A stretch of 64,000 bases of DNA from contig JAHBZE010000001.1 in NCBI GenBank assembly GCA_019635585.1, positions 1,302,001-1,366,000 on the forward strand, in the 5' to 3' direction. A model generated the notes under the pieces. The model was not told the DNA's origin. It saw nothing but the letters and a program-made list of their open reading frames with translations, and searched no databases. Below are positions 1 to 11,176 of the stretch, in pieces. Each line of letters starts with the position of its first letter. Position 1 is the stretch's first letter. The translations under genes were made by a program, and so were the position numbers. This DNA is from Xanthobacteraceae bacterium. Lineage in GTDB: Bacteria; Pseudomonadota; Alphaproteobacteria; Rhizobiales; Xanthobacteraceae.

Positions 1-216
1 GACATTCTTCTTGTAGTCGACGGCCGGCAAGAACTAGTCGATGAAATACAAGAAGCAGACGAAGATATTCAAAGTTACGTTGCAGAACAATTTCGCGCAC
101 TGCTCAAACATAGGGATTTTGATCACTTTTTAGTTGGTAACATCCGAGGCTCTGAAGACCGCATCGCGGTTGTAAAAGAGCGCTTTGTCACCATAAGCAA
201 CAGCGACCAAAAATAG
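1..216 (+). CDS. C-terminal fragment of an unrecognised island gene (5' end outside window)
   Basis: Frame 1 is open from the first base to a TAG at 214-216 and gives 71 residues, acidic and mostly helical in character, ending in ERFVTISNSDQK. The start lies off the left edge. I do not recognise the family. It converges on the GIY-YIG gene, with 91 bp between the two stops and no clear terminator hairpin there. Base composition is more AT-rich than the chromosomal genes after 11.2 kb, which fits it being cargo of the same island. It may be a further defence or toxin gene, but nothing in the visible part shows that. Confidence 0.5.
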   Translation, partial: DILLVVDGRQELVDEIQEADEDIQSYVAEQFRALLKHRDFDHFLVGNIRGSEDRIAVVKERFVTISNSDQK

Positions 217-307: not shown

Positions 308-1495
308 TTAGGACCTCGAGGATTCTATCAAAGCAGCCGACTTCGGATCGTATCTGAACCTAGTGATCGTCCCATCCTGGATTTTCTGCACTACATCATC
401 GATTACGAATAGAGGAACAAGAAACCATTCGCGCGGGACTACAGGATTTCCGAAACGGTCCTTGATCTCAATATCCAGCCGTGCCGGATCGAAGATACGA
501 TGGATGAGGTTTTCAAGCTTCGTTCGATTGATGTTGGCAAGCTTGTAGGTGGCGATTATTTCTACGTCGGCCAGCAGGAAGGTTGGATCGAGCTTCGCAT
601 TCGCGACTCGCGTTTTCACGTCGCCGCCCGTCACACCGATCTTGTGCAGCACGTCGCGATGCCGCGCGACAGCAGGATCGTCGGACTTGCTGCGCAGCAC
701 ATAGATCGTGCCGCTCGGCAGGTCATCGGGCTCCACTTCCCCAGCAAACAGAGGCCCAGCAACGGGATCGATAATGCGCCGGCCGGCGTCATCCTTTTGG
801 AGTGCACGCTCCACAGAACGCTTGAGCATGGTGCTCTCGGTGCCGTTGTCGAAAATGACGCGAAGGCGGCGGTCTTTTCGTCCATAATCGGCAACGAACT
901 CCTCACCTTCCTCAGCGATGTACGCTTTCTGCCCACCGAGAATGAACCAGTGGCCTTTCTCGATCGTTGCGTCGTCACGGAACGGACGAGTTTCGCGCAT
1001 GCCGTTCGCAAGTTCTCGCTGCACCTGCTCAAACAACGGTTTGAACCGATCGAAGTCCTCGCACTTCTCGCGGTTGGCGATTTCCTCGGCGGCGCGTTTG
1101 TCGGCAGCCGTGCGCACATGGCGTAATTCCGTGATATCAGTTGCGCCTTCTGCGCCCTCCAACTCGGCCAGCAATTCCTCGTCGTCCATTGTTTCGACCA
1201 CCGCGGCGGGAACCGTCGCCGCGCCGGCAAAGAGGCCTTGTTTGTCCAGCGGCGCGAGAAGCGAACGGCACTCCTCCAGTGCGCGCAGACGGTCGAGGCG
1301 CACCGCATAAAGCCGTTCAAATATTTCACGATCTTCCCCATGCTGAGGAGCGCGGCCGTGCTTCTCAACAAACCGCTGAATCTCCTCAAATCCCGCGATG
1401 ATGCGTTCCGCGCGCGCAGAGCGTCCGCCTTTTTTCTCTGGCGCGGCGAAGTCGGCGAGTTCCGTTGCGAGTTCGTCAAGATCGAGGTCAGTCAT
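308..1495 (-). CDS. GIY-YIG family nuclease of a restriction-like system
   Basis: 395 aa. The first 250 residues are charged and helical and match nothing I know. The C-terminal part carries a GIY-YIG domain of the T5orf172/MUG113 type: the GIY strand is TIY at 263-265, the YIG strand is KIG at 285-287, the likely catalytic Arg is R296 and the likely metal-binding Glu is E328. Known members of this fold cut one or both DNA strands using a metal ion. The ATG lies 8 bp inside the end of the helicase gene, so the two are almost certainly translationally coupled. I infer that it is the cleavage subunit, or one of two, of the system encoded upstream. Its substrate is unknown. Confidence 0.8.
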   Translation of the reverse strand: MTDLDLDELATELADFAAPEKKGGRSARAERIIAGFEEIQRFVEKHGRAPQHGEDREIFERLYAVRLDRLRALEECRSLLAPLDKQGLFAGAATVPAAVVETMDDEELLAELEGAEGATDITELRHVRTAADKRAAEEIANREKCEDFDRFKPLFEQVQRELANGMRETRPFRDDATIEKGHWFILGGQKAYIAEEGEEFVADYGRKDRRLRVIFDNGTESTMLKRSVERALQKDDAGRRIIDPVAGPLFAGEVEPDDLPSGTIYVLRSKSDDPAVARHRDVLHKIGVTGGDVKTRVANAKLDPTFLLADVEIIATYKLANINRTKLENLIHRIFDPARLDIEIKDRFGNPVVPREWFLVPLFVIDDVVQKIQDGTITRFRYDPKSAALIESSRS

Positions 1496-3566
1496 AGCGT
1501 CCCTCTTTCTTGTACCGCATAAAGGCGGTGGCGCCTTCAGCCATGCGCCGCTCCCATGCGTCCTGCGAGTCGATAGACGGAAGCCGGCCGCGCTCTTTCT
1601 TGAACCTCGCCGCCCGAACGGCCAGTTCTCGCGCCTCCTCGGGCGACAGGCTGGTGCGTTTAGCGGAAATCGCCGCAGCGACCTGTTTAAGGCTGTCCTC
1701 GCTCATGGTCTTCGCAAGGATGGCGTAAGCCTCGCCGAACGGATTGATCCGGTCGATCAGATCGATGTCGAGTTCGCGCACGTCCATCGCGAATCTGCGC
1801 ACGCCGTCAATAAGAGCGGTGTTGGCGCTCGGTGCATTGTCGTCATCGGCTCCACCGCCCGTCCCGTGTCCACCGAGTGCGATCTGCTTGGCCTGCTGCG
1901 TTATGGTAAGTGCAGCGATTGCGTGTTGGCGCACGGCCTCCTGATCTTCCTCGCCGAGTTCGGGATACTTGTCCTTGATGATTTTCCCCATCCGCACTTG
2001 GGTCAGCTCTTCGGGGATCAGTTCCTCGTCAAAAAGCCCGCGCTCAATGGTTGTCTTGTCCTGCACGAAGGCCGCAATGACTTCATTCAGATCCTCGGTG
2101 CAGATGCGCGCGGCTTCCTTGCTCTTCGGCTCGGCGAGGCCCTTGATCTCGATGTGAAATTGGCCTGTTGCTGCATTGAAGCCGACATTGCCCTTGCTAA
2201 GATCGTAGCCGCCTTCGCCGTAGTCGAAACCTTCGACTGGCCCGCTTTGCGGATTCTTCGGCGTGAAGTTGAAGCGCGGCGCAAGCACCTGTTCCATCAA
2301 CAGGCTAGCAGCAATGGCTTTCAGGGTATCGTTGACGGCCTCAGTGACGGCCTCGGCCGACGCATCCGGCTCGGCGATCAAATTGGTGAAACGCGCGCGG
2401 GTCTTGCCCGGAGCATCGCGGGTCGCACGGCCGATGATTTGCACGATCTCGGTCAGGCTCGACCGATAGCCGACCGTTAACGCGTGTTCGCACCAAATCC
2501 AGTCGAAGCCCTCCTTGGCCATGCCCAGCGCGATGATGATGTCTACATGGTCGCGATTGTTCTTCTGCGCAGGGTCTTTTAGCGCGGCAGAAACCTTGTC
2601 CCGCTTGGCAGGATCGTCATCGACAAGATCGGCGATGCGCAACACCCGGCCGTCAGACCGCTTGACCAGCTGGAAACCGGTGGCGGGGTCGGCTCCCTGC
2701 CAGTCGCCCAAGGCCTCGATGATGTGCTCGACTTCCCTGATCTTGTCCTTCGTGCTTTCACGCGAATTGACGCTCGGGATGTGAATAATTGTCTTCTCTG
2801 CCGGGCCCAGGACGGCGAGGATGTCATCGGCGTAGGAGCCGGAATAGAAGAAGTAGCCGATGTCCAGCCGCTTCAGATAATCGTATCCATTCAGCTGCTC
2901 ATAGTACGTGTAGGTGACGGTATCGAACTTGGCCTCGTCCTGTGGAGCCAGCACGGGCATTGCGTCACCACGGAAATAGGAGCCGGTCATAGCGACGATG
3001 TGCACCTTGTCGCGGGCAATGAACGCACCGAGATGCTGACCAAGCTTATTGTCAGGATCGGCGGAAACGTGGTGGAACTCATCAACCGCGATCAGCCGGT
3101 TGTCGAATTTTTCGACGCCAAACCTCTCCACTGCGAAACGGAAGGTTGCGTGGGTGCAGACCAGCACCTTCTCGTCGCTGTTTAAGAAGGCACCGACCGA
3201 ATTGACCTTGCCGCCGTTGTCCGCGCCGGGCGCGTCGCAAAGATTCCACTTCGGCTCGACTTTCCAGTCTGCCCAAAAGCCATACTTGGTGAGCGGCTCA
3301 TCATGAAAACTCGCCCCGATCGCCTTCTCCGGAACAACGATGATCGCCTGCTTGAGTCCCTGATTGGTAAGTTTGTCGAGAGCGATGAACGCCAGCGCCC
3401 GGCTTTTGCCGGATGCCGGTGGCGACTTAATAAGAAGGTATTGCTCGCCGCGCCGTTCATAAGCACGTTCCTGCATCGGCCGCATGCCGAGCGCATTGGA
3501 CTTGGTCGAGGAGCCGTTGCGGGCATACGAAACTGAAACGGAAGGAACACGGGGCCTTTCAATCAT
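1488..3566 (-). CDS. SF2 DEAD/DEAH-type helicase of a restriction-like system
   Basis: 692 aa from the ATG at 3566, which overlaps the stop of the DUF262 gene as ATGA; the frame stays open 8 codons further upstream. Superfamily 2 motifs in order are Walker A with ASGKS at 51-55, a DEFH box at 162-165, TGSYF at 194-198 (motif III), MAKEGFDW at 349-356 (motif V) and QIIGRATR at 376-383 (motif VI). The 300-residue C-terminal part is not recognised and may bind partner subunits. Such ATPases in restriction systems translocate along or remodel DNA to license cleavage. The gene sits between a DUF262/HNH gene and a GIY-YIG nuclease gene and overlaps both, so it is a core subunit of this cassette. 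Confidence 0.85.
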   Translation of the reverse strand: MIERPRVPSVSVSYARNGSSTKSNALGMRPMQERAYERRGEQYLLIKSPPASGKSRALAFIALDKLTNQGLKQAIIVVPEKAIGASFHDEPLTKYGFWADWKVEPKWNLCDAPGADNGGKVNSVGAFLNSDEKVLVCTHATFRFAVERFGVEKFDNRLIAVDEFHHVSADPDNKLGQHLGAFIARDKVHIVAMTGSYFRGDAMPVLAPQDEAKFDTVTYTYYEQLNGYDYLKRLDIGYFFYSGSYADDILAVLGPAEKTIIHIPSVNSRESTKDKIREVEHIIEALGDWQGADPATGFQLVKRSDGRVLRIADLVDDDPAKRDKVSAALKDPAQKNNRDHVDIIIALGMAKEGFDWIWCEHALTVGYRSSLTEIVQIIGRATRDAPGKTRARFTNLIAEPDASAEAVTEAVNDTLKAIAASLLMEQVLAPRFNFTPKNPQSGPVEGFDYGEGGYDLSKGNVGFNAATGQFHIEIKGLAEPKSKEAARICTEDLNEVIAAFVQDKTTIERGLFDEELIPEELTQVRMGKIIKDKYPELGEEDQEAVRQHAIAALTITQQAKQIALGGHGTGGGADDDNAPSANTALIDGVRRFAMDVRELDIDLIDRINPFGEAYAILAKTMSEDSLKQVAAAISAKRTSLSPEEARELAVRAARFKKERGRLPSIDSQDAWERRMAEGATAFMRYKKEGRYD

Positions 3567-5275
3567 GTAGTGGGCTCCGTGCCCTCGCAAAGCGCCTTCA
3601 TATCGCGCTCAACAAGTCTTGCTCGCGCATCTAAGAAGGCTTGATAGTTGTCTCCGACCAGCTCCGCGTATGGGATAAGATGGGTTGCCAACCGCCAGCG
3701 TACGGTGTCCTCACCTAGATTCGCCGCCCTAGCTCTATCGGATACGTAACTGCTAGGGGGAGCGGCGCTTTTGTTTCTATTTGTCAACGACGTGATGAGG
3801 GCGCAGTTTATGGCGCGATTAGCTAGCGGGTCGTCGCGATCGACATTCAGAAAGCCGCACGAATACAGATGATCAAGTTCACGGGCAGACACGTTACTTC
3901 GGCTAATTGGCGACCCATCAGCAAAGTCTTGAGCCTTCCGTCTAAGTGATGTCGCGAGAATTGCCCGTGGCAGGCGGTCCTTTCTACCCGGCCACCCGGC
4001 AATTTTCATTTCGTCGATATTTGGGAGAGGAAAAAGCGCCTCATTGAATAATTCACAGGGGGAGCCGTCACCAGCACCTTCGATCGTCGCCCGTAACAAA
4101 CGGAAGTCGGCATACGCCCGCGTTGCAGACGTCTTGCCATACCGATCCGTAAAACATGCGCGCCAAAGCACCTTGCGAATCAAGCTGCGAGCGTTGCCTT
4201 CTTGATCTAGCGTAAGATCGGCAGCGATCGCCCACAGCGCGCAAGTAAGGTACACTGCGACGTCGCTAGGAAGCGTTTTCTCGTTAAAGAGCGCCTCGTC
4301 ACTCAAAAACTGTATACCACGCTCCATTCCAGCGACGACTTTGGACCAGACACTCGCGAGCCCTGCGCCGAAATCGTCCTCCAGATATGTCTTTTTAAGC
4401 GGAGCCTTGTCCAGGAGTAGTGCTCCGACAGAGAGAATAATGTCCTCGATACGCCCGTAGTCTTTTGCCGCCGGCGCGGATTGAAGAAGATTCTGGACCA
4501 TATCATGAAGGGATTCTCCTACTCCCTCTTCTACTTGTGCTACGACGATGTCGTAGTCCTTAAGCGGGGACGCAGAAGTGTTCATATTGATGAACACGTC
4601 CAAAGCCGTTTCCCGCGTTGTGCCAACCGGTAGGGATAAGAATGGAAGCGTGTAGGTAAGGACCCGCTTCCGCAATTCACCAGCAAGATCGCCTATGTCG
4701 TCGCTATATGCTCCACCTGCCCGCAATTCATCGCGCCAACTCTTAAAAGAAATTTCCCCCGCACTACCCGGGCGAAAAATAGATATGGGAGCTAGTCCGC
4801 GCTCGATACACGCCACGTAGTCATCGGCCCAAATTGGTTGGCGGATACCTTTCCGCTCCCAACGCTTCTCTATCTCGATCATAGATTGCGGTTCGTTGTC
4901 GTCCCGTTCATCGTCTGTGACTGTATCGGCGATTGGCATGCGCAGTCGTACAAAGACCTTTAGGTCTTCGTAGTTGTCAGTCAGAGAGCGCCATAGGGCT
5001 GTCATTCGCTGCTGACCATCAAGGAGCTGCATGCTTGGCTTTACATTCAGTTGCGGCGCTCCCACTATTGATCGCGAAAGAAAAATCTCCCTATCGCCGA
5101 CTTCCAGAACAAGCAGAACCCCTAACGGAAGTGATGGGACTTGCAAGATGTTCTCAAATAGGCCGGCGATCTGAGCAGGGCGCCAAGCTTCGTGACGCTG
5201 AAACCTCGGCAGCTTAATTTGTCCCTCTTCGATCATGGAGAACCACACCTCAATCGGCTTACTTCGAGCCTCCAT
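3563..5275 (-). CDS. DUF262 protein with HNH-like C-terminal domain (GmrSD/DUF1524-like)
   Basis: 570 aa. The N-terminal DUF262 signature is clear: KLPRFQR near 21-27, W31, and the LDGQQRMTAL block at 85-94. Near the C-terminus, DH at 468-469 followed by Asn-rich segments (N490 and TNRNKS around 499-503, then PSSY) resembles the HNH arrangement of DUF1524 in GmrSD-type enzymes. In that family DUF262 hydrolyses nucleotide and the HNH domain cuts modified DNA. The start at 5275 is preceded by GAGGG about 6 bp upstream. A 65-bp gap separates it from the methyltransferase, and it overlaps the helicase by 4 bp. Base composition looks lower in GC than its neighbours, hinting that it joined the cassette separately. 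The HNH assignment is less certain than DUF262. Confidence 0.75.
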   Translation of the reverse strand: MEARSKPIEVWFSMIEEGQIKLPRFQRHEAWRPAQIAGLFENILQVPSLPLGVLLVLEVGDREIFLSRSIVGAPQLNVKPSMQLLDGQQRMTALWRSLTDNYEDLKVFVRLRMPIADTVTDDERDDNEPQSMIEIEKRWERKGIRQPIWADDYVACIERGLAPISIFRPGSAGEISFKSWRDELRAGGAYSDDIGDLAGELRKRVLTYTLPFLSLPVGTTRETALDVFINMNTSASPLKDYDIVVAQVEEGVGESLHDMVQNLLQSAPAAKDYGRIEDIILSVGALLLDKAPLKKTYLEDDFGAGLASVWSKVVAGMERGIQFLSDEALFNEKTLPSDVAVYLTCALWAIAADLTLDQEGNARSLIRKVLWRACFTDRYGKTSATRAYADFRLLRATIEGAGDGSPCELFNEALFPLPNIDEMKIAGWPGRKDRLPRAILATSLRRKAQDFADGSPISRSNVSARELDHLYSCGFLNVDRDDPLANRAINCALITSLTNRNKSAAPPSSYVSDRARAANLGEDTVRWRLATHLIPYAELVGDNYQAFLDARARLVERDMKALCEGTEPTT

Positions 5276-5340
5276 AATTACCCTCGTTCCTCAATACCGC
5301 GCGATCTAATTTCTCGTCTTCGATTTGCTCTTCGTACTGA

Positions 5341-8079
5341 CTACGTTGCTGTCATCTTAGTATAAAATTCGAAGAGCTTCTCCAGCCGCTCAGTATCATT
5401 GCGGAACCGTCGGCCAATGTAGATACGTTCCAGCACCTCATCATTGCGCTCGTGCGCTTCGCGCAGATCGCCCGGCATATTCTTCGGATCGTAAAGTTCG
5501 GCGATGGTCGCCGGAAAATGCGCCTCGCGCGCCAGTACAATGTCTTCGGCGCAGCGGGTAAGATCGGCTTTCATTTTCTCAGTAAGCGGTGGAACTGGGA
5601 AGGTGTTCCAGCCCAGGGTATTGGAATAGCGATAGCGGGTTTCCAGCTTGCCGCAAACTGTGCCGATCCACACCAGATGCAGGCGCGATGCGATCAGCGC
5701 CATGTTCCAGAGAGGAGCATCGTAGAGGCCAAATGCGAGGTTAGTCAGTGCAGTACGGCCGTCGACTAGCCCGACTGGCAAGTAGTTACGCCTTTCAGAA
5801 GAAACCGCCGGGACAACTATGGTGTGGCGCTTCCCGATCATCATTGTCTTCAGCTGATGCGCACGTCTGGCGAGGGCATTCGCTCCCTTGTCTGTGCTGG
5901 CGAGCCTAAATTGTTTCGTTTTTTCGATGAGACGATCGAAGAGCGGAACCTTGCGGGCGTCCGCAAGATCACTATTCTCGATCCACAGACACAAACGGTG
6001 TTGTCCATTGATGAAGTCAGCCGAGCCGACGATCTTTCGAAAGAAACGCGACTTGACGTCTTCAGCAAGTTCGAGCGCGGCGAAATCGGAGTAATCAAAA
6101 AGATAGTTGCCGTTTTCGTACGGCATATTTCCACGCGTCATTTCCGATAACGACGAAATCGGCTTTCGGTGCTTTTCAATAACGCTCGACGGAGAAAGAA
6201 CCAAGTAAGGCGAAATCTCAGTTCCTACCCGAACAGACGACTTTCCCGCCGCATCTTCTTCGAAAAGCAACTTGGCTTCATTGTCCACGAGTCCGATTGA
6301 AACGATTACTACAGTTACACCAGCGTTGTAACTCGCTAAGTTCGACCATTTGAATGAAGTATGAGCGAACTTCAATTCGCATCCGGCGTTAAATATCAAA
6401 GGCCACAAATAGGAAACCATTTGGCCTTGACAGATTGAGTTGGTGGCGACGAAAGCGGCCTCCCCGGTATTTGTTTGAAGCCAATCGGCCGCTTTCAAAA
6501 GCCACCCAGACACGTAGTCGAGAAAACCCGGCGAGTTCATCCTTCCACGAACGAGATCTTTGATCTCAGCTTTCTGGGCTTTTGATTGGTAAGTCGTGCC
6601 CAAGTACGGTGGGTTTCCGCAGATATAAGTCTCCCCGCCCTCGTTATCGAAGTCGATCTGAGGCTGATTTAATGGCGTGTTGAACAAATCGTCGCCGTGC
6701 AGCTTCACGCCCGTTCCCGTCGGCGGACAAATGCTCAGCCAGTCAAGTCGCAGGGCGTTACCGCAGGTAATCCAGTTCCGCGCATCGAGCGGCAAAAAAT
6801 CCTGCAACGCTTCTTTCTGGCCACGATAGAGAACATTGCATTGATATTCCGCGATGATGAGCGCGAGTCGTGCGATCTCGGCTGGAAAGTCGCGGATTTC
6901 AATACCGCGAAAATTGGTCAGTGTGAGTTCTGTTTTTCGTCCGTCTTCCTTGCGCCGTTTGTTGATCTCGGCCTCAATCGCTCGCATTTCCTTGTACGCG
7001 ATGACAAGAAAGTTACCGGAGCCGCAGGCCGGATCGAAAATCCTAATCTTGGCCATGCGGTTGCGCAGATTGAAAAGCTTACGGGAATTGTCACCGGCTT
7101 CCTCAAGCCGAACGCGCAAGTCCTCAAGAAACAGCGGATTGAGGACCCTCAGTATGTTCGGCACCGACGTGTAGTGCATGCCGAGCGCGTCGCGTTCGTC
7201 CTCGTCGGCGACGGCCTGAATCATCGACCCGAAGATATCGGGGTTGATCTTGGTCCAGTCGAGACCGCCGATGTGTAGGAGATAGGACCGGGCGATCTTA
7301 CTGAAACGCGGCGTATCCACGCTTCCGGAGAACAGTTCGCCGTTCACATATGGAAAAGCGTCAGCCCATCGGGAAATGCTGGCGTTCGCTCGGTCCTCGC
7401 GCTTGGTGTTCATGGCGCGGAATAATTCGCCAATCACCTCATGCGTGTTGGACGAATCCTTCGCACTCATCTTCTCGACAGTATCGGTGAACAGATTTTT
7501 GCCGCTGAAGATGTCCGTATCCTCGGCAAAAAAGCAGAAAATTAACCGTGCTATGAAGTGGTTCATTTCGTGCCGTCGCGCGGCGACGTCCCAATCGGGA
7601 TTGTCTTTCAGAAGTTCGATATAGAGCCGGTTCATCCGGCTTGTGGCGCGGATGTCGAACGAGCTTTCTCGAATTTGCTTGACGGTAGTAATGCCGGCCA
7701 GCGGCAGGAAGAAGCCGAAATGGTCGGGGAAGTCGGCAAAAGCACAGGCGACTGTTTCGCCGGTATCGAAATCCTCAGCCTCGAAGTCCGCGCCGTCGGT
7801 CGCGAGAATGAAGCGCGCCTTGGCCTTAGCTGTGGCCGGACTAGCTTTCAGTGCGGCTAGGGTCTTCGTGACCTCCCCCGGCGAGCAAACGGCGATATGA
7901 ATATTGTTGGTTTGCAGAACGCCGCCCAAATCCGACTTGTTCGATGCGCCCGCGCGCAGCCGCTTGATCGTCGTTTCCTTGTTGCCGAACGCTTGCAGGA
8001 ACGCAAAGGGGAACTCGCCGCCGTCCAACGGCTGTTTCGCGAGTGCCGATATGGCTTCTTCGATTTCTACAGCGTTCAT
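5341..8079 (-). CDS. MmeI-like class I SAM-dependent DNA adenine methyltransferase, nuclease-less
   Basis: 912 aa from the ATG at 8079; an in-frame TTG at 8136 would add 19 residues, but the protein family usually begins at MNAVEIEEAI. The layout follows MmeI-type IIG enzymes: N-terminal domain 1-150, helical spacer about 160-300, methyltransferase core from 300, then target recognition and C-terminal regions. The SAM motif DPACGSGNF is at 349-357 and NPPY at 489-492, which indicates N6-adenine methylation. In MmeI the N-terminal domain carries a PD-(D/E)xK nuclease; here the corresponding stretch (about 50-110) has no visible E-x-K pair. It therefore probably only modifies DNA and supplies sequence specificity. 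It lies 65 bp after the integrase stop and heads the four defence genes. Confidence 0.85.
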   Translation of the reverse strand: MNAVEIEEAISALAKQPLDGGEFPFAFLQAFGNKETTIKRLRAGASNKSDLGGVLQTNNIHIAVCSPGEVTKTLAALKASPATAKAKARFILATDGADFEAEDFDTGETVACAFADFPDHFGFFLPLAGITTVKQIRESSFDIRATSRMNRLYIELLKDNPDWDVAARRHEMNHFIARLIFCFFAEDTDIFSGKNLFTDTVEKMSAKDSSNTHEVIGELFRAMNTKREDRANASISRWADAFPYVNGELFSGSVDTPRFSKIARSYLLHIGGLDWTKINPDIFGSMIQAVADEDERDALGMHYTSVPNILRVLNPLFLEDLRVRLEEAGDNSRKLFNLRNRMAKIRIFDPACGSGNFLVIAYKEMRAIEAEINKRRKEDGRKTELTLTNFRGIEIRDFPAEIARLALIIAEYQCNVLYRGQKEALQDFLPLDARNWITCGNALRLDWLSICPPTGTGVKLHGDDLFNTPLNQPQIDFDNEGGETYICGNPPYLGTTYQSKAQKAEIKDLVRGRMNSPGFLDYVSGWLLKAADWLQTNTGEAAFVATNSICQGQMVSYLWPLIFNAGCELKFAHTSFKWSNLASYNAGVTVVIVSIGLVDNEAKLLFEEDAAGKSSVRVGTEISPYLVLSPSSVIEKHRKPISSLSEMTRGNMPYENGNYLFDYSDFAALELAEDVKSRFFRKIVGSADFINGQHRLCLWIENSDLADARKVPLFDRLIEKTKQFRLASTDKGANALARRAHQLKTMMIGKRHTIVVPAVSSERRNYLPVGLVDGRTALTNLAFGLYDAPLWNMALIASRLHLVWIGTVCGKLETRYRYSNTLGWNTFPVPPLTEKMKADLTRCAEDIVLAREAHFPATIAELYDPKNMPGDLREAHERNDEVLERIYIGRRFRNDTERLEKLFEFYTKMTAT

Positions 8080-8143: not shown

Positions 8144-9163
8144 TCAGGCCATCGAGCGGATGATGTCAGCTTGGCGGCGGCTGTCGAGATTACCGTAGCT
8201 GGTAAATGTCGTCAGCACATGCTCGTGGCCCAAGTTCTGGGACCAGGCCTTGTACTGCTCGGGGTTCTGGCAAAGCTCGCCACCGAGAAGGGCTAAAGTC
8301 TTCCGGAAGCTGTGAGGGTTGAAATAGGGCAAGCCCACCAGCGCGAACCCCTCCTTGAATACCTTCCGGATCGGCCCCGCATTGCTCCAATGTTCGCGGT
8401 CCAGGCCAACTACCTCAAATCGAAATCCACTTCCCACCGCGATTTTGGTAGCTGGGAACAGCGGATCATCGAGTCCCCAGAGCTTGTCGCGTCGCAAATA
8501 TTCGACCCAATCCTCCACGACTCTACGAATGTCGTCGCCTACAGGAAAGAATGTGGTCACGAACGACTTGGAGAACTTAGTCCGCACGTCGCGCGCGTCC
8601 TGGTCGACACAACCTTGCGCAATATCAATATGCCGGAGCTTGAATGAGGCGATCGCGCCGTCCCGCGCTCCAGTCAGGATAGTGAATGCGATCAGGGCCC
8701 GATTGCGATGCTCAATCTCGGTGGTCGCTGGCATGGTGTGGATGACGTGGCGAATTTGTTCTAGCGTCGGAACGCGCGCCGGACGGCTCGCTTTGGCAAC
8801 GCGCGTGTCCTTGACGGAAAGATTGAAATACTCGGCGTCGGCATAGCTGATGCGAGATTTGAAACCGGGCTGTCCAGCAAGCCACCAAAAAAAGCGCTTG
8901 AGGGCGGTTAGGGTGGCGTAAAGAGTGGCCTTGCTCAGTGGCGCACCACTCCGACGGCCGTTCTGTTCGGCAAGTTCACGCTTAAATGCCTTGGCCTGCT
9001 CGACGTGGAACGCCTTGAAGTCTTTGTATCGGGTGTAAGCCTCAAACCGGGCGATTGCCTTCGCAACTGCATCGATCGATTGCTCGCTGTGACCTAATGC
9101 GTCCGTAAGATAGGCGAAGTACTGACGCTTCATCCGCTCGTTTGCGGGGTTGTAACTCATCAT
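8144..9163 (-). CDS. Tyrosine-type site-specific integrase of the island
   Basis: 339 aa. The N-terminal 100 residues form a SAM-like core-binding domain. Catalytic residues of the tyrosine recombinase family can be read: R167 in TGARDG, H284 and R287 in HSFRKT, H313 in LGHEHV, and the nucleophile Y323 in TSYG. It presumably recombines the element into the tRNA-Arg gene at 11100-11176. Its ATG overlaps the stop of the upstream HTH gene by 4 bp, and the methyltransferase follows closely. The integrase therefore sits inside an apparent operon rather than at the island edge, with an unrelated gene between this operon and the tRNA. Confidence 0.9.
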   Translation of the reverse strand: MMSYNPANERMKRQYFAYLTDALGHSEQSIDAVAKAIARFEAYTRYKDFKAFHVEQAKAFKRELAEQNGRRSGAPLSKATLYATLTALKRFFWWLAGQPGFKSRISYADAEYFNLSVKDTRVAKASRPARVPTLEQIRHVIHTMPATTEIEHRNRALIAFTILTGARDGAIASFKLRHIDIAQGCVDQDARDVRTKFSKSFVTTFFPVGDDIRRVVEDWVEYLRRDKLWGLDDPLFPATKIAVGSGFRFEVVGLDREHWSNAGPIRKVFKEGFALVGLPYFNPHSFRKTLALLGGELCQNPEQYKAWSQNLGHEHVLTTFTSYGNLDSRRQADIIRSMA

Positions 9164-9645
9164 CGGTGAGCGCCGTCGGTTAAGTTACAATTCACGTAGA
9201 GCCTCTCAGTCTCCTTTATGCGTGGTCGTGGCCGCGTAAGCGTGACGTCCAGGTCGTCCCGAATTTCTTCAATCCTCAGCGGATTTACCTTTCGGTAGAT
9301 CATACGATCGCAATCGGGGCAGATACCTTGAAGGGTGCCGGTGGTGTCGCCCGTTACGATGCACTCGGCCATCCTTCCGGCTGGCACCTTTGGCGCCCGG
9401 CATGGGAGGCAATAAATCCGGCCTGGCCCGCATGCTTGCTTGGCGCCAAGCCGGCGTTCCGTCAGAAAGCGGCGCAACTCGCCGCCCAACACCAAAGTCG
9501 GCCGCTGATCGTCAATCGGGTTTAGCCCTTGCCGCAGCCAAATGCGTACCGTGTTTTTATGAATCCGGAATAGCCGCGATACGTCTTCCACCGAATAGGT
9601 CCGATGGATTTTAGCGAGGCGGTGGTTCGGATGCCGGCGCCCCAT
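9160..9645 (-). CDS. Helix-turn-helix protein with zinc-ribbon-like cysteines
   Basis: 161 aa. Residues 15-45 (YSVEDVSRLFRIHKNTVRIW) form a clear helix-turn-helix resembling the MerR/HTH_17 type. Two CxxC pairs follow, YCLPC near 79 and ICPDC near 108, and look like one zinc-binding site. The ATG comes directly after the TAA of the AlpA-like gene, and the stop overlaps the integrase start by 4 bp. Small proteins like this are common just upstream of integrases in rhizobial islands. I infer a DNA-binding accessory or regulator of integration, or of the whole operon; there is no direct evidence for either. Confidence 0.7.
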   Translation of the reverse strand: MGRRHPNHRLAKIHRTYSVEDVSRLFRIHKNTVRIWLRQGLNPIDDQRPTLVLGGELRRFLTERRLGAKQACGPGRIYCLPCRAPKVPAGRMAECIVTGDTTGTLQGICPDCDRMIYRKVNPLRIEEIRDDLDVTLTRPRPRIKETERLYVNCNLTDGAHR

Positions 9646-9885
9646 TTATCGGGCATGCGCGGCGGTTAAGGCCTTCAGGAAGCGTTCGTTCGCATCCAAG
9701 GTGTTCGTTACGGCCCTGGATTGCAACCATTGCTCAAGATCGGCCGCCCTATAAACAACGCGGCGACCCAGCTTGCAGTAAACTGGGCCGTTCCCGTTCA
9801 GCCGCATCTTTGCGAGTGTACTTTCCGAAAGCCCGACTATTCGTGCGGCATCCCGGCACATCAAAACTTTACTGGTCTCGGCCAT
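9646..9885 (-). CDS. AlpA/excisionase-like helix-turn-helix protein
   Basis: 79 aa. An AlpA/HTH_17 fold is evident: CRDAARIVGLSESTLAKMR forms the HTH, followed by KLGRRVVYRAADLEQWL, the wing and helix typical of AlpA and Xis-like proteins. Such proteins either activate integrase expression or direct excision. The ATG is preceded by a GGAAAG Shine-Dalgarno. It is the first gene of the minus-strand run, with a 121-bp leader that contains a dyad at 9909-9923, so it is a plausible controller of the whole run including the defence genes. Confidence 0.8.
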   Translation of the reverse strand: MAETSKVLMCRDAARIVGLSESTLAKMRLNGNGPVYCKLGRRVVYRAADLEQWLQSRAVTNTLDANERFLKALTAAHAR

Positions 9886-9908
9886 TTCTTTCCTTTCCCG
9901 GAATTGCT

Positions 9909-10006: not shown

Positions 10007-10972
10007 TTAGATTTTCTGTCCGTCGCTGCGCACGAACTTGTCGTAGTAGGGAGTGAGCTTCTCACCTATCGCCGCTCTACTAGGGCGGATAGCGAAGTTC
10101 TTAGCGAACCATTCTTTAAAATATTCAATGGCTGCTTCCTTCTTTTTTGGGAGTTCCCCTCGCCTGATTAAATCAGCGACTTCGATGTAAAAAGGTTCCC
10201 AAGGGTATGAAGGTCTCCCGCGTTTCGTCCTTAACTGGGCAGTTTTTGCATTCCCACTGAGCACAAAAGAAACCCCTACTTGTTCGACGGTACCGGCTAG
10301 CCTTCGCTCGCCAGGAAAAACTGCAAGAACCTCCTCCGTATCAAAATTGATATGGCAGTAGTGATCGGTCTCACTCTTTGCAGTGCTTGCATCGAAGTTG
10401 ATGCCCTGCAGAGTCCAAAATGATGAAGGAATATCCGAAAAAGCGAGGTCGAAAGTACTGTACCCGTTTTCCGCAAGTCCACTAAGAGCCTCGTCTACAT
10501 CTTTCGATGGTAATTTTCGACCTCGGGCCCTTAAACGACCTTCCTTTAGAGCTACGAAAATCCTCGAAGAAGGATATTCCAACACTCCTTGATAGAGGGG
10601 TGTCCATGCGTCGAGCTCTCTTTCAAATTCTAATGCCTTTTCTCGTTCTTGCTCTAACCAAGCTCTGAAGTCGGGAGCTAGATTGCTCTCTCTGAGCTGT
10701 TCTTCATATTTCACCGAAGGGAGTGTTGATCTCTCTTCAAGGGAAGCAAGCCATGATGGGTCTGGCGGAATTTTAGCGGCCTGTGTTTCCTCGTCATCGA
10801 CGGATCCATCGAGAAAACTGGTAGCGTAGTCGCCTATTTCTTCTGTCTCTCGGATTTCTTTACCGTCGAGAGTAAATTGCGCTACCGGCAGTCGTTTAAA
10901 TGCGACCCAATAGAGTACCTCTTGGAGAAAGCATCTCTTCGGGAGACTTACGGGCTGAAGGAAAATCGGCAT
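10007..10972 (-). CDS. Unrecognised island protein next to the tRNA-Arg attachment site
   Basis: 321 aa from the ATG at 10972; a TTG at 11050 would extend it by 26 residues. The function is unknown. The protein is acidic, with a helical, charged centre (about 95-135, rich in Glu and Lys). Its last 65 residues begin with RGRPSYPWEPFYIEVADLI, which resembles a C-terminal module I associate with many uncharacterised alphaproteobacterial proteins that lie near integrases. There is no signal peptide or membrane segment. It is separated from the AlpA-like gene by 121 bp and from the tRNA by 127 bp. Composition is visibly AT-richer than the core genome. Confidence 0.6.
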   Translation of the reverse strand: MPIFLQPVSLPKRCFLQEVLYWVAFKRLPVAQFTLDGKEIRETEEIGDYATSFLDGSVDDEETQAAKIPPDPSWLASLEERSTLPSVKYEEQLRESNLAPDFRAWLEQEREKALEFERELDAWTPLYQGVLEYPSSRIFVALKEGRLRARGRKLPSKDVDEALSGLAENGYSTFDLAFSDIPSSFWTLQGINFDASTAKSETDHYCHINFDTEEVLAVFPGERRLAGTVEQVGVSFVLSGNAKTAQLRTKRGRPSYPWEPFYIEVADLIRRGELPKKKEAAIEYFKEWFAKNFAIRPSRAAIGEKLTPYYDKFVRSDGQKI

Positions 10973-11099
10973 TCGCCTATTGTGTGCGAAAGCCAGCCCG
11001 ATTCCTACGCGGTGTTTCCCTGGTGCTGCCCGATTTGCCCAATGCGTCAATAGGACAAAAAATCGAGCAGAAAAGCTTTATTGAAATCAAATAGATAAA

Positions 11100-11176
11100 T
11101 GGCGCGCTCGGAGAGATTCGAACTCCCGACCCCCAGATTCGTAGTCTGGTGCTCTATCCAGCTGAGCTACGAGCGC
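11100..11176 (-). tRNA. tRNA-Arg (anticodon ACG)
   Basis: Read on the minus strand, the cloverleaf is complete. The acceptor stem GCGCTCG pairs with CGAGCGC, the D arm is AGCTC/GAGC, the anticodon stem CCAGA/TCTGG encloses CTACGAA with anticodon ACG, the T arm contains GTTCGAATC, and discriminator G is followed by an encoded CCA. Wobble A34 would be deaminated to inosine by TadA to read CGN codons. The 3' end faces the island, so this gene is the probable integration site, with its 3' part serving as the attachment core. Confidence 0.97.

Follow-up and report, generated by a model that had tools for sequence, protein, structure and literature searches.

The window analysed here is a stretch of 64,000 nucleotides from a Xanthobacteraceae bacterium, and the element in question is a group of four adjacent minus-strand genes near its left end (Table 1). 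With a probability that we put at roughly 0.78, this group is a DnmA-YeeB-YeeC restriction-modification operon with an embedded, independently acquired DUF262 gene, the whole being carried on a tRNA-Arg genomic island. A preliminary description of the same DNA had treated the four genes as one multi-subunit system without a counterpart among named systems. The three core genes, encoding a MmeI-like methyltransferase, a superfamily 2 (SF2) helicase and a GIY-YIG nuclease, are in fact a named set (PMC9973331, to the extent of its available text), and the fourth gene is read as cargo because DUF262 is found in the slot between methyltransferase and helicase genes in none of 87 other loci, and because that slot is empty in 45 of 103 loci. 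The case is thus one of embedded cargo in a known, little-studied restriction operon; what is new is the slot at this place, not the operon nor embedding as such.

Table 1. Features of the window, with the evidence on which each assignment is based
Feature	Position	Strand	Basis
dnmA-like gene: MmeI-family N6-adenine methyltransferase and specificity protein, 912 aa; nuclease domain without E and K of D-ExK	5341..8079	-	Pfam, PADLOC, PDB 5hr4, motif columns
Target recognition domain (TRD) of the methyltransferase (residues 630-832), first variable module	5584..6192	-	Pfam MmeI_TRD; divergence among close pairs
Cargo slot, methyltransferase stop to helicase start, second variable module	3567..5340	-	Slot survey of 108 loci
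Cargo gene: GmrSD_N/DUF262 protein, 570 aa, DGQQR and divergent HNH-like C-terminus	3563..5275	-	Pfam; weak PDB match 7p9k; alignment with 3 relatives
yeeB-like SF2 helicase gene	1488..3566	-	Pfam; invariant motifs; conserved order
yeeC-like T5orf172 GIY-YIG nuclease gene	308..1495	-	Pfam; invariant Y265, K285, G287, R296, E328
Tyrosine recombinase gene beside the cassette	8144..9163	-	Pfam Phage_integrase 2.5e-7
Small helix-turn-helix protein	9160..9645	-	HTH_17 3e-5, below Pfam cut-off
Right copy of 49-bp direct repeat, nearly all within the tRNA-Arg gene (11100-11176, -)	11098..11146		Repeat search; left copy at G000:C1:1299351

A gap of 65 bp (5276-5340) separates the methyltransferase gene from the DUF262 gene, which overlaps the helicase gene by 4 bp (ATGA), while the helicase and nuclease genes overlap by 8 bp; this layout is as previously given, and the four domain assignments made from the letters alone are supported by Pfam. 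The methyltransferase contains all five MmeI domains, i.e., MmeI_N, MmeI_hel, MmeI_Mtase (E value 3e-111), MmeI_TRD and MmeI_C, and is matched over its full length by the PADLOC type IIG model PDLC03598 (934 bits). The helicase matches DEAD (E value 7e-7) and ResIII (E value 1e-5), the nuclease T5orf172 (E value 1e-12) and MUG113 (E value 1e-13), and the remaining protein GmrSD_N (PF03235; E value 3e-18), which we take to be the DUF262 family. In PADLOC the helicase and nuclease show weak partial matches only (PbeA, PDC-S57), and the best matches of the DUF262 protein are also weak (HEC-05, 56 bits; PDC-M55C, 53 bits). When the PDB was queried with the helicase, the GIY-YIG protein and alignments of them, no match worth keeping came up, and a promoter and terminator scan of the locus yielded sites no more frequent than in shuffled sequences. 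Among the seven proteins encoded between 308 and 11050, Pfam and PADLOC detected neither PglZ or BrxC of BREX (bacteriophage exclusion), nor DrmA or DrmB of DISARM (defence island system associated with restriction-modification), nor HsdS or HsdR of type I systems, as had been stated for this cassette. Matches to PglX, DrmMI and type I models came from the methyltransferase alone, and these three systems were rejected as assignments, as was MADS (methylation-associated defence system), of which mad1 and mad2 gave only weak PADLOC matches.

Conservation was scored in 108 loci, comprising the window, seven relatives, 80 loci from a contig search and 20 from a draw over the phylum. The contig sample consists of the best 80 of at least 553 relatives and is biased to near kin of the window. 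A helicase search was positive in eight of 101 genomes, that of the window included, and in none of the seven genomes of the same genus (G001-G007). Over the phylum, a helicase profile was positive in 25 of 398 genomes, again with the window's own, one match being doubtful (G180; E value 8.5e-4) and two being fragments (G263 and G290); from the 24 other positive genomes 20 were fetched, these three and G172 being left out. The core genes have the same order and strand in all seven other helicase-positive relatives, the methyltransferase gene of one (L015) being interrupted, and stand in order on one strand in 102 of the 108 loci. The six exceptions are a contig that ends within the helicase gene (L062) and five loci without an upstream methyltransferase match, three on short contigs and two (L028, L108) with none in approximately 6-7 kb upstream. 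Co-occurrence, which the preliminary description had expected of all four genes, therefore holds for three and is rare for DUF262, and the modification and cleavage cassette it proposed is retained as a conserved operon of methyltransferase, helicase and nuclease. The helicase-nuclease junction, of 16-144 bp, was never filled (0/107 evaluable loci). The helicase motifs ASGKS, DEFHH and QIIGR.TR are invariant in 106 of 106 sequences, and the five nuclease residues listed in Table 1 in 103 of 103. At an E value of 1e-30 the helicase matched 260 of 72,556 plasmid records, 148 of them over at least 80% of its length, and 116 of the 260 were typed as conjugative.

In Bacillus subtilis, DnmA (YeeA) is a homologue of MmeI without a restriction endonuclease motif and is accompanied by YeeB, an SF2 helicase, and YeeC, a T5orf172 protein, the set being conserved across species (PMC9973331). 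As described in the available text of that paper, it shares with the window a nuclease-motif-free MmeI-like methyltransferase, an SF2 helicase, a T5orf172 GIY-YIG protein and their order; the Bacilli sequences compared here came from four loci, with the same three core genes and an empty slot. The window differs by its additional DUF262 gene in the methyltransferase-helicase junction. The same text describes no variable slot, and mentions an "Uncharacterized protein family" around the locus as possibly another member in some bacteria. No description of a variable slot in DnmA-YeeB-YeeC was found in the literature, preprints and most subscription journals lying largely outside the coverage of the search.

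When a slot of 150 bp or more is called filled (which puts three viral slots of 114 bp among the empty ones), the methyltransferase-helicase junction is filled in 58 of the 108 loci and empty in 45, with no methyltransferase in reach in five. All seven relatives are filled; the contig sample divides into 43 filled, 33 empty and 4 without methyltransferase, and the phylum draw into 7, 12 and 1. Compared with the helicase-nuclease junction the difference is large (58/103 vs 0/107; Fisher p 8e-23, calculated on related loci that are not independent). Viral contigs carry the operon as well, with 9 of 27 slots filled, 14 empty and 4 without methyltransferase, and five slot families recur there. The slots of L113-L120, the eight lowest-scoring fetched loci of the phylum draw, are empty, as are those of the Bacilli, and filling may therefore be confined to part of the family.

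Among the 108 loci, the window is the only one with DUF262 in the slot. Its two nearest relatives found, both without a slot gene, are L021 from Bradyrhizobium pachyrhizi (helicase identity 89.5%), which belongs to the 103-locus count, and L154 from a Nitrobacter plasmid (90.5%), which lies outside it; the window methyltransferase stops 18 codons early against the former and 14 against the latter, at the point where the insert begins. The gene thus lies within a defence locus and is absent from close relatives of that locus, which is the mark of an embedded gene. Of 397 other genomes searched, three encode a relative of the DUF262 protein, and these do not overlap with the 25 helicase-positive genomes; on plasmids, relatives were detected in three of 72,556 records, and none of seven candidates from viral contigs proved to be a relative. 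The nearest relative (41% identity) is located among defence-like genes near BREX, and no core genes were found near it or near the Persicobacter relative. When aligned with three relatives, the DUF262 protein retains DGQQR and the later conserved N residues, with a divergent HNH motif; an HNH-like end is plausible at most. It has the GmrSD_N domain and DGQQR motif in common with GmrSD type IV enzymes, from which it differs in a C-terminal nuclease half without Pfam match, DUF1524 included. By family the window cargo would fit a GmrSD/BrxU-like enzyme. The precedent is BrxU, a type IV enzyme of the DUF262 kind whose gene lies between brxC and pglX in the BREX locus of pEFER. It resembles the window in the placement of a DUF262 protein between core genes of an N6-methyladenine (m6A) defence locus, but it is associated with a BREX core and carries a DUF1524 domain (PMC8565348, as far as its text was available).

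Slot contents differ among most of the seven relatives, although two (L014, L018) have the same gene, and they differ between loci whose helicase genes are 92-96% identical (L046/L079, L088/L093, L095/L096, L016/L049). On a tree of 101 helicases (FastTree only), slot label requires 50 changes and filled versus empty state 26, and seven of the eight slot families with three to five rows need as many changes as they have rows. Slots are also more distant from the helicase in G+C content at third codon positions (0.130) than the other core genes are (0.083 and 0.077; p 5e-4 and 2e-3; 45 loci). The main cargo open reading frame lies on the operon strand in 57 of 58 filled slots; it overlaps the methyltransferase stop by 4 bp in 42, the helicase start in 27 and both in 21, and in 32 of 45 empty loci the helicase and methyltransferase genes themselves overlap likewise. 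Short overlaps of start and stop are ordinary in operons, and these therefore show coupling and not a special recombination site.

In the methyltransferase the motifs DPACGSGNF and NPPY are invariant (20/20). The protein shares all five domains with MmeI, a type IIL enzyme (PDB: 5hr4) that cuts by itself and whose nuclease requires D70, E80 and K82 (PMC4833311). Its alignment with MmeI comprises two stretches and spans residues 82 to 911, position 82 corresponding to MmeI 102. With the alignment extended upstream, and counted over the 80 loci with a full methyltransferase that were also used for the TRD, D70 falls on D50, present in 80/80, E80 on position 60 (I in 79, L in 1) and K82 on position 62 (I in 67, L in 10, and V, M and Y in one each). 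A single-chain self-cutting enzyme of type IIL was accordingly rejected, E and K of D-ExK being absent from all 80; unlike MmeI, the window protein is followed by helicase and nuclease genes. As the Y, R and E residues of the GIY-YIG protein and the helicase motifs are invariant while the methyltransferase has lost E and K, cutting has most likely passed to the partners. A near-invariant block, N.SD..GG.LQ..NIHI, occupies residues 47-62 (window 7894-7941), with D50 and H61 in 80/80, and its sequence suggests a new conserved role for this part of the former nuclease domain.

Within the methyltransferase it is the TRD that varies. Mean pairwise identity of the methyltransferases is 0.30-0.40 at residues 601-780, 0.38-0.59 at 511-600 and approximately 0.6-0.9 elsewhere, and of 28 pairs whose helicases are at least 92% identical, 27 have a TRD below 60%, with flank medians of 92 and 88%. 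Some loci occur in more than one pair, so that the pairs are not independent; slot state was scored as one main label per locus (L038 has a second gene). Slot content differs in 16 of the 28 pairs. Since 11 pairs differ in TRD at the same slot label, and L077/L100 show the reverse, with different slots but a common TRD (88%), each of the two modules changes on its own.

At least 20 slot families were not joined by BLAST (RhuM, YhcG, PLD-like, AlbA_2, PDDEXK, BrnT, PIN, RelB/YafQ, zeta toxin and unnamed ones), and clustering placed the slot open reading frames, which are mechanical calls, in 13 recurrent groups, each named by Pfam and PADLOC from one or two members. These are RhuM/PDC-S05 (7 slots), YhcG-DUF1016/PDC-S02 (5), a weak PLD-like group (4), AlbA_2 with HATPase (3), BrnT (3), PDC-S67 (3), PDDEXK_4/PDC-S26 (2), and six families without a strong name, of 277 aa (7), 139 aa (7), 260 aa (5), 286 aa (4), 317-392 aa (3, one member with a weak T5orf172 match) and 82 aa (2, repetitive). 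Singletons include the DUF262 gene of the window, CcdA, PIN genes, DUF559, zeta toxin, DUF4258, RelB/YafQ and an HTH-peptidase resembling PD-Lambda-2_B; no clear gene occupies the slot in L075 or in viral L136. One scanned member each of the 277, 139, 260, 286 and 317 aa families had no PADLOC match at 0.001. In the 139-aa family a D...QLK pattern is, by eye, reminiscent of a PD-(D/E)xK nuclease. For the 277-aa family, an AlphaFold model from five sequences reached a predicted local distance difference test score (pLDDT) of 75; Foldseek gave no match at an E value of 0.001 or better, and its best match, Csm6 (E value 0.43), together with an RNYIH motif, hints at a HEPN protein. Viral contig L133 carries a different 277-aa slot protein, CoiA-like by eye, which BLAST does not join to the common family.

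Several of these families are also encountered away from the operon. Eight plasmid stretches with relatives of the 277, 139, 260 and 286 aa families, chosen for having no dnmA or yeeB annotation under the match, were searched by tblastn (1e-3), and seven (L155-L158, L161-L163) contain no core genes; in the eighth, L159, a 139-aa relative lies between remains of dnmA and helicase. For the 139, 260 and 286 aa families, further plasmid matches adjoin the core by annotation or occur on a record with it (H84, H85, H89, H135-H139). These slot families, with plasmid copies both with and without core, therefore live inside and outside the slot. In the available text of PMC12988326, genetically embedded defences (Payne et al. 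2024) are described as defence genes within another defence locus, PADLOC HEC names denote Hma-embedded candidates, and PDC families derive from guilt by embedding. The present slot resembles them in holding groups that match PDC-S02, S05, S26 and S67, and differs in its host operon, DnmA-YeeBC, and in five recurrent families without PADLOC match. Presence in the slot singles out a handful of as yet unstudied candidates for defence proteins.

In the mechanism that we propose, the methyltransferase would be the only specificity subunit, its TRD reading an asymmetric site at which m6A is placed on host DNA. With its N-terminal nuclease domain deprived of E and K of D-ExK, cutting would pass to the partners; the helicase may move along or open DNA bearing unmethylated sites, and the GIY-YIG nuclease would cut such DNA. 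The slot gene would be exchangeable cargo, read from the operon without being a subunit of it, and in the window may encode a BrxU/GmrSD-like nucleotide-dependent type IV enzyme directed against phages whose modified DNA escapes m6A. A more general proposal, tentative and with the odds somewhat against it, is that DnmA-YeeB-YeeC is a general restriction platform that is still alive and has two modules open to separate exchange. One would be the TRD and the other a slot, often flanked by ATGA overlaps, in which unrelated defence or toxin genes are loaded and unloaded with the operon unbroken, the cargo perhaps becoming armed when the core is blocked. If this were true, the slot would be a natural trap for new defence families, for which the 277, 139, 260, 286 and 317 aa proteins would qualify.

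Several observations weigh against the reading as an operon with embedded cargo. Decay is under way in some copies: L015 and L079 have methyltransferase genes broken by an interruption of approximately 1 kb or more, and on the Thioclava plasmid (L159) only parts of methyltransferase and helicase are left. On the helicase tree the slots are slightly clustered (40 changes over all groups vs a shuffled mean of 46.9, with 0/200 shuffles as low), and RhuM needs 2 changes for 7 rows; slot exchange is fast but not free. The D-ExK placements depend on a gapless upstream extension of a MmeI alignment that starts at residue 82. The DUF262 start lies 65 bp past the methyltransferase stop, not in the 4-bp overlap of 42 of 58 filled slots, and its coupling to the operon is therefore weaker here. 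The relation of its product to PDB 7p9k ("DUF262 domain-containing protein"; E value 0.003), presumably BrxU, is distant, and an AlphaFold model of the protein without homologues has a mean pLDDT of 36. Its motif reads DHLYS, against the DHIYP quoted for GmrSD proteins in the available text of PMC8565348. Deletions in dnmA-yeeB-yeeC of B. subtilis left sensitivity to three phages unchanged, and the authors regarded the set as a relic (PMC9973331, available text).

A whole cassette decaying as such a relic, with the methyltransferase alone kept, is unlikely, even though the decayed copies L015, L079 and L159 are in line with it. The motifs of 106 helicases and the Y, R and E residues of 103 nucleases are invariant, the four reading frames of the window are open, and TRDs turn over fast while their flanks are kept; an arms race with phages would be expected to produce just such an invariant core with fast turnover of specificity and cargo. 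In favour of the operon with embedded cargo, PMC9973331 reports greater sensitivity to some phages in V. crassostreae after deletions of dnmA and yeeB. The obligate complex of all four proteins, in which DUF262 would be the nucleotide-driven cutting subunit of this version, we regard as very improbable. It would account for four genes on one strand and for the 4-bp overlap of DUF262 stop and helicase start, but the slot has no gene in 45/103 loci, L021 and L154, the two nearest relatives found, are empty, DUF262 recurs in 0/87 loci and the slot families are unjoined by BLAST; as a four-gene system the locus was consequently rejected.

Two further readings concern the cargo. Slot genes might be interchangeable effector subunits activated by the core rather than independent cargo, which would agree with the many nucleases and toxins among them, with the shared strand in 57/58, with the double 4-bp overlaps in 21/58 and with the 139-aa family, three of whose five plasmid records are tied to the core (H84 and H85, which are also helicase records, and the decayed operon). 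We consider this improbable, since empty slots are common, seven of the eight plasmid stretches with cargo relatives have no core gene and the one left (L159) is in a decayed operon, and only 1 of 48 plasmid records of the 277-aa family covers 80% of the query. Type II toxin-antitoxin pairs, moreover, need no partner. Alternatively, the cargo could be a fail-safe that acts when a phage disables or degrades the core, for which PrrC inside a type I locus is a precedent; toxin-antitoxin genes and the RNYIH family would suit such a guard, whereas the DUF262, PLD-like, PDDEXK and YhcG proteins have the appearance of nucleases that act directly, and this, too, seems rather unlikely, if a little less so than effector subunits. 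We thus retain the DnmA-YeeB-YeeC operon with embedded, independently acquired cargo, and note that the core set regarded as a relic in B. subtilis has, when the family is viewed more widely, active-site residues that do not vary and a TRD and slot that turn over very fast.

The cassette sits on a tRNA-Arg genomic island with a 49-bp exact direct repeat of the 3' half of the tRNA gene, whose copies are 13,747 bp apart. A tyrosine integrase adjoins the left copy (L002:17525-18835; Pfam 1e-16). The tyrosine recombinase beside the cassette was found in none of the 87 other loci. A DNA query with the whole cassette detected a single copy in its own genome. The Thioclava remnant L159, on plasmid p6, has kept residues 1-303 and 875-910 of the methyltransferase and 15-432 of the helicase; three small genes still lie between these remains. 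On the tRNA side of the island, a 347-aa protein (window 10007-11050) had no Pfam, NCBIfam or PADLOC match worth keeping, and a stretch upstream of the helix-turn-helix gene (window 9650-9900) resembles, by eye, a short AlpA-type excisionase gene, the frame tried having stops. To the left of the cassette the same island carries two further genes (window 1-216; L002:18958-20000), of which the second, without Pfam match at 0.01, has a nucleotidyltransferase-like pattern and appears AbiE-like by eye.

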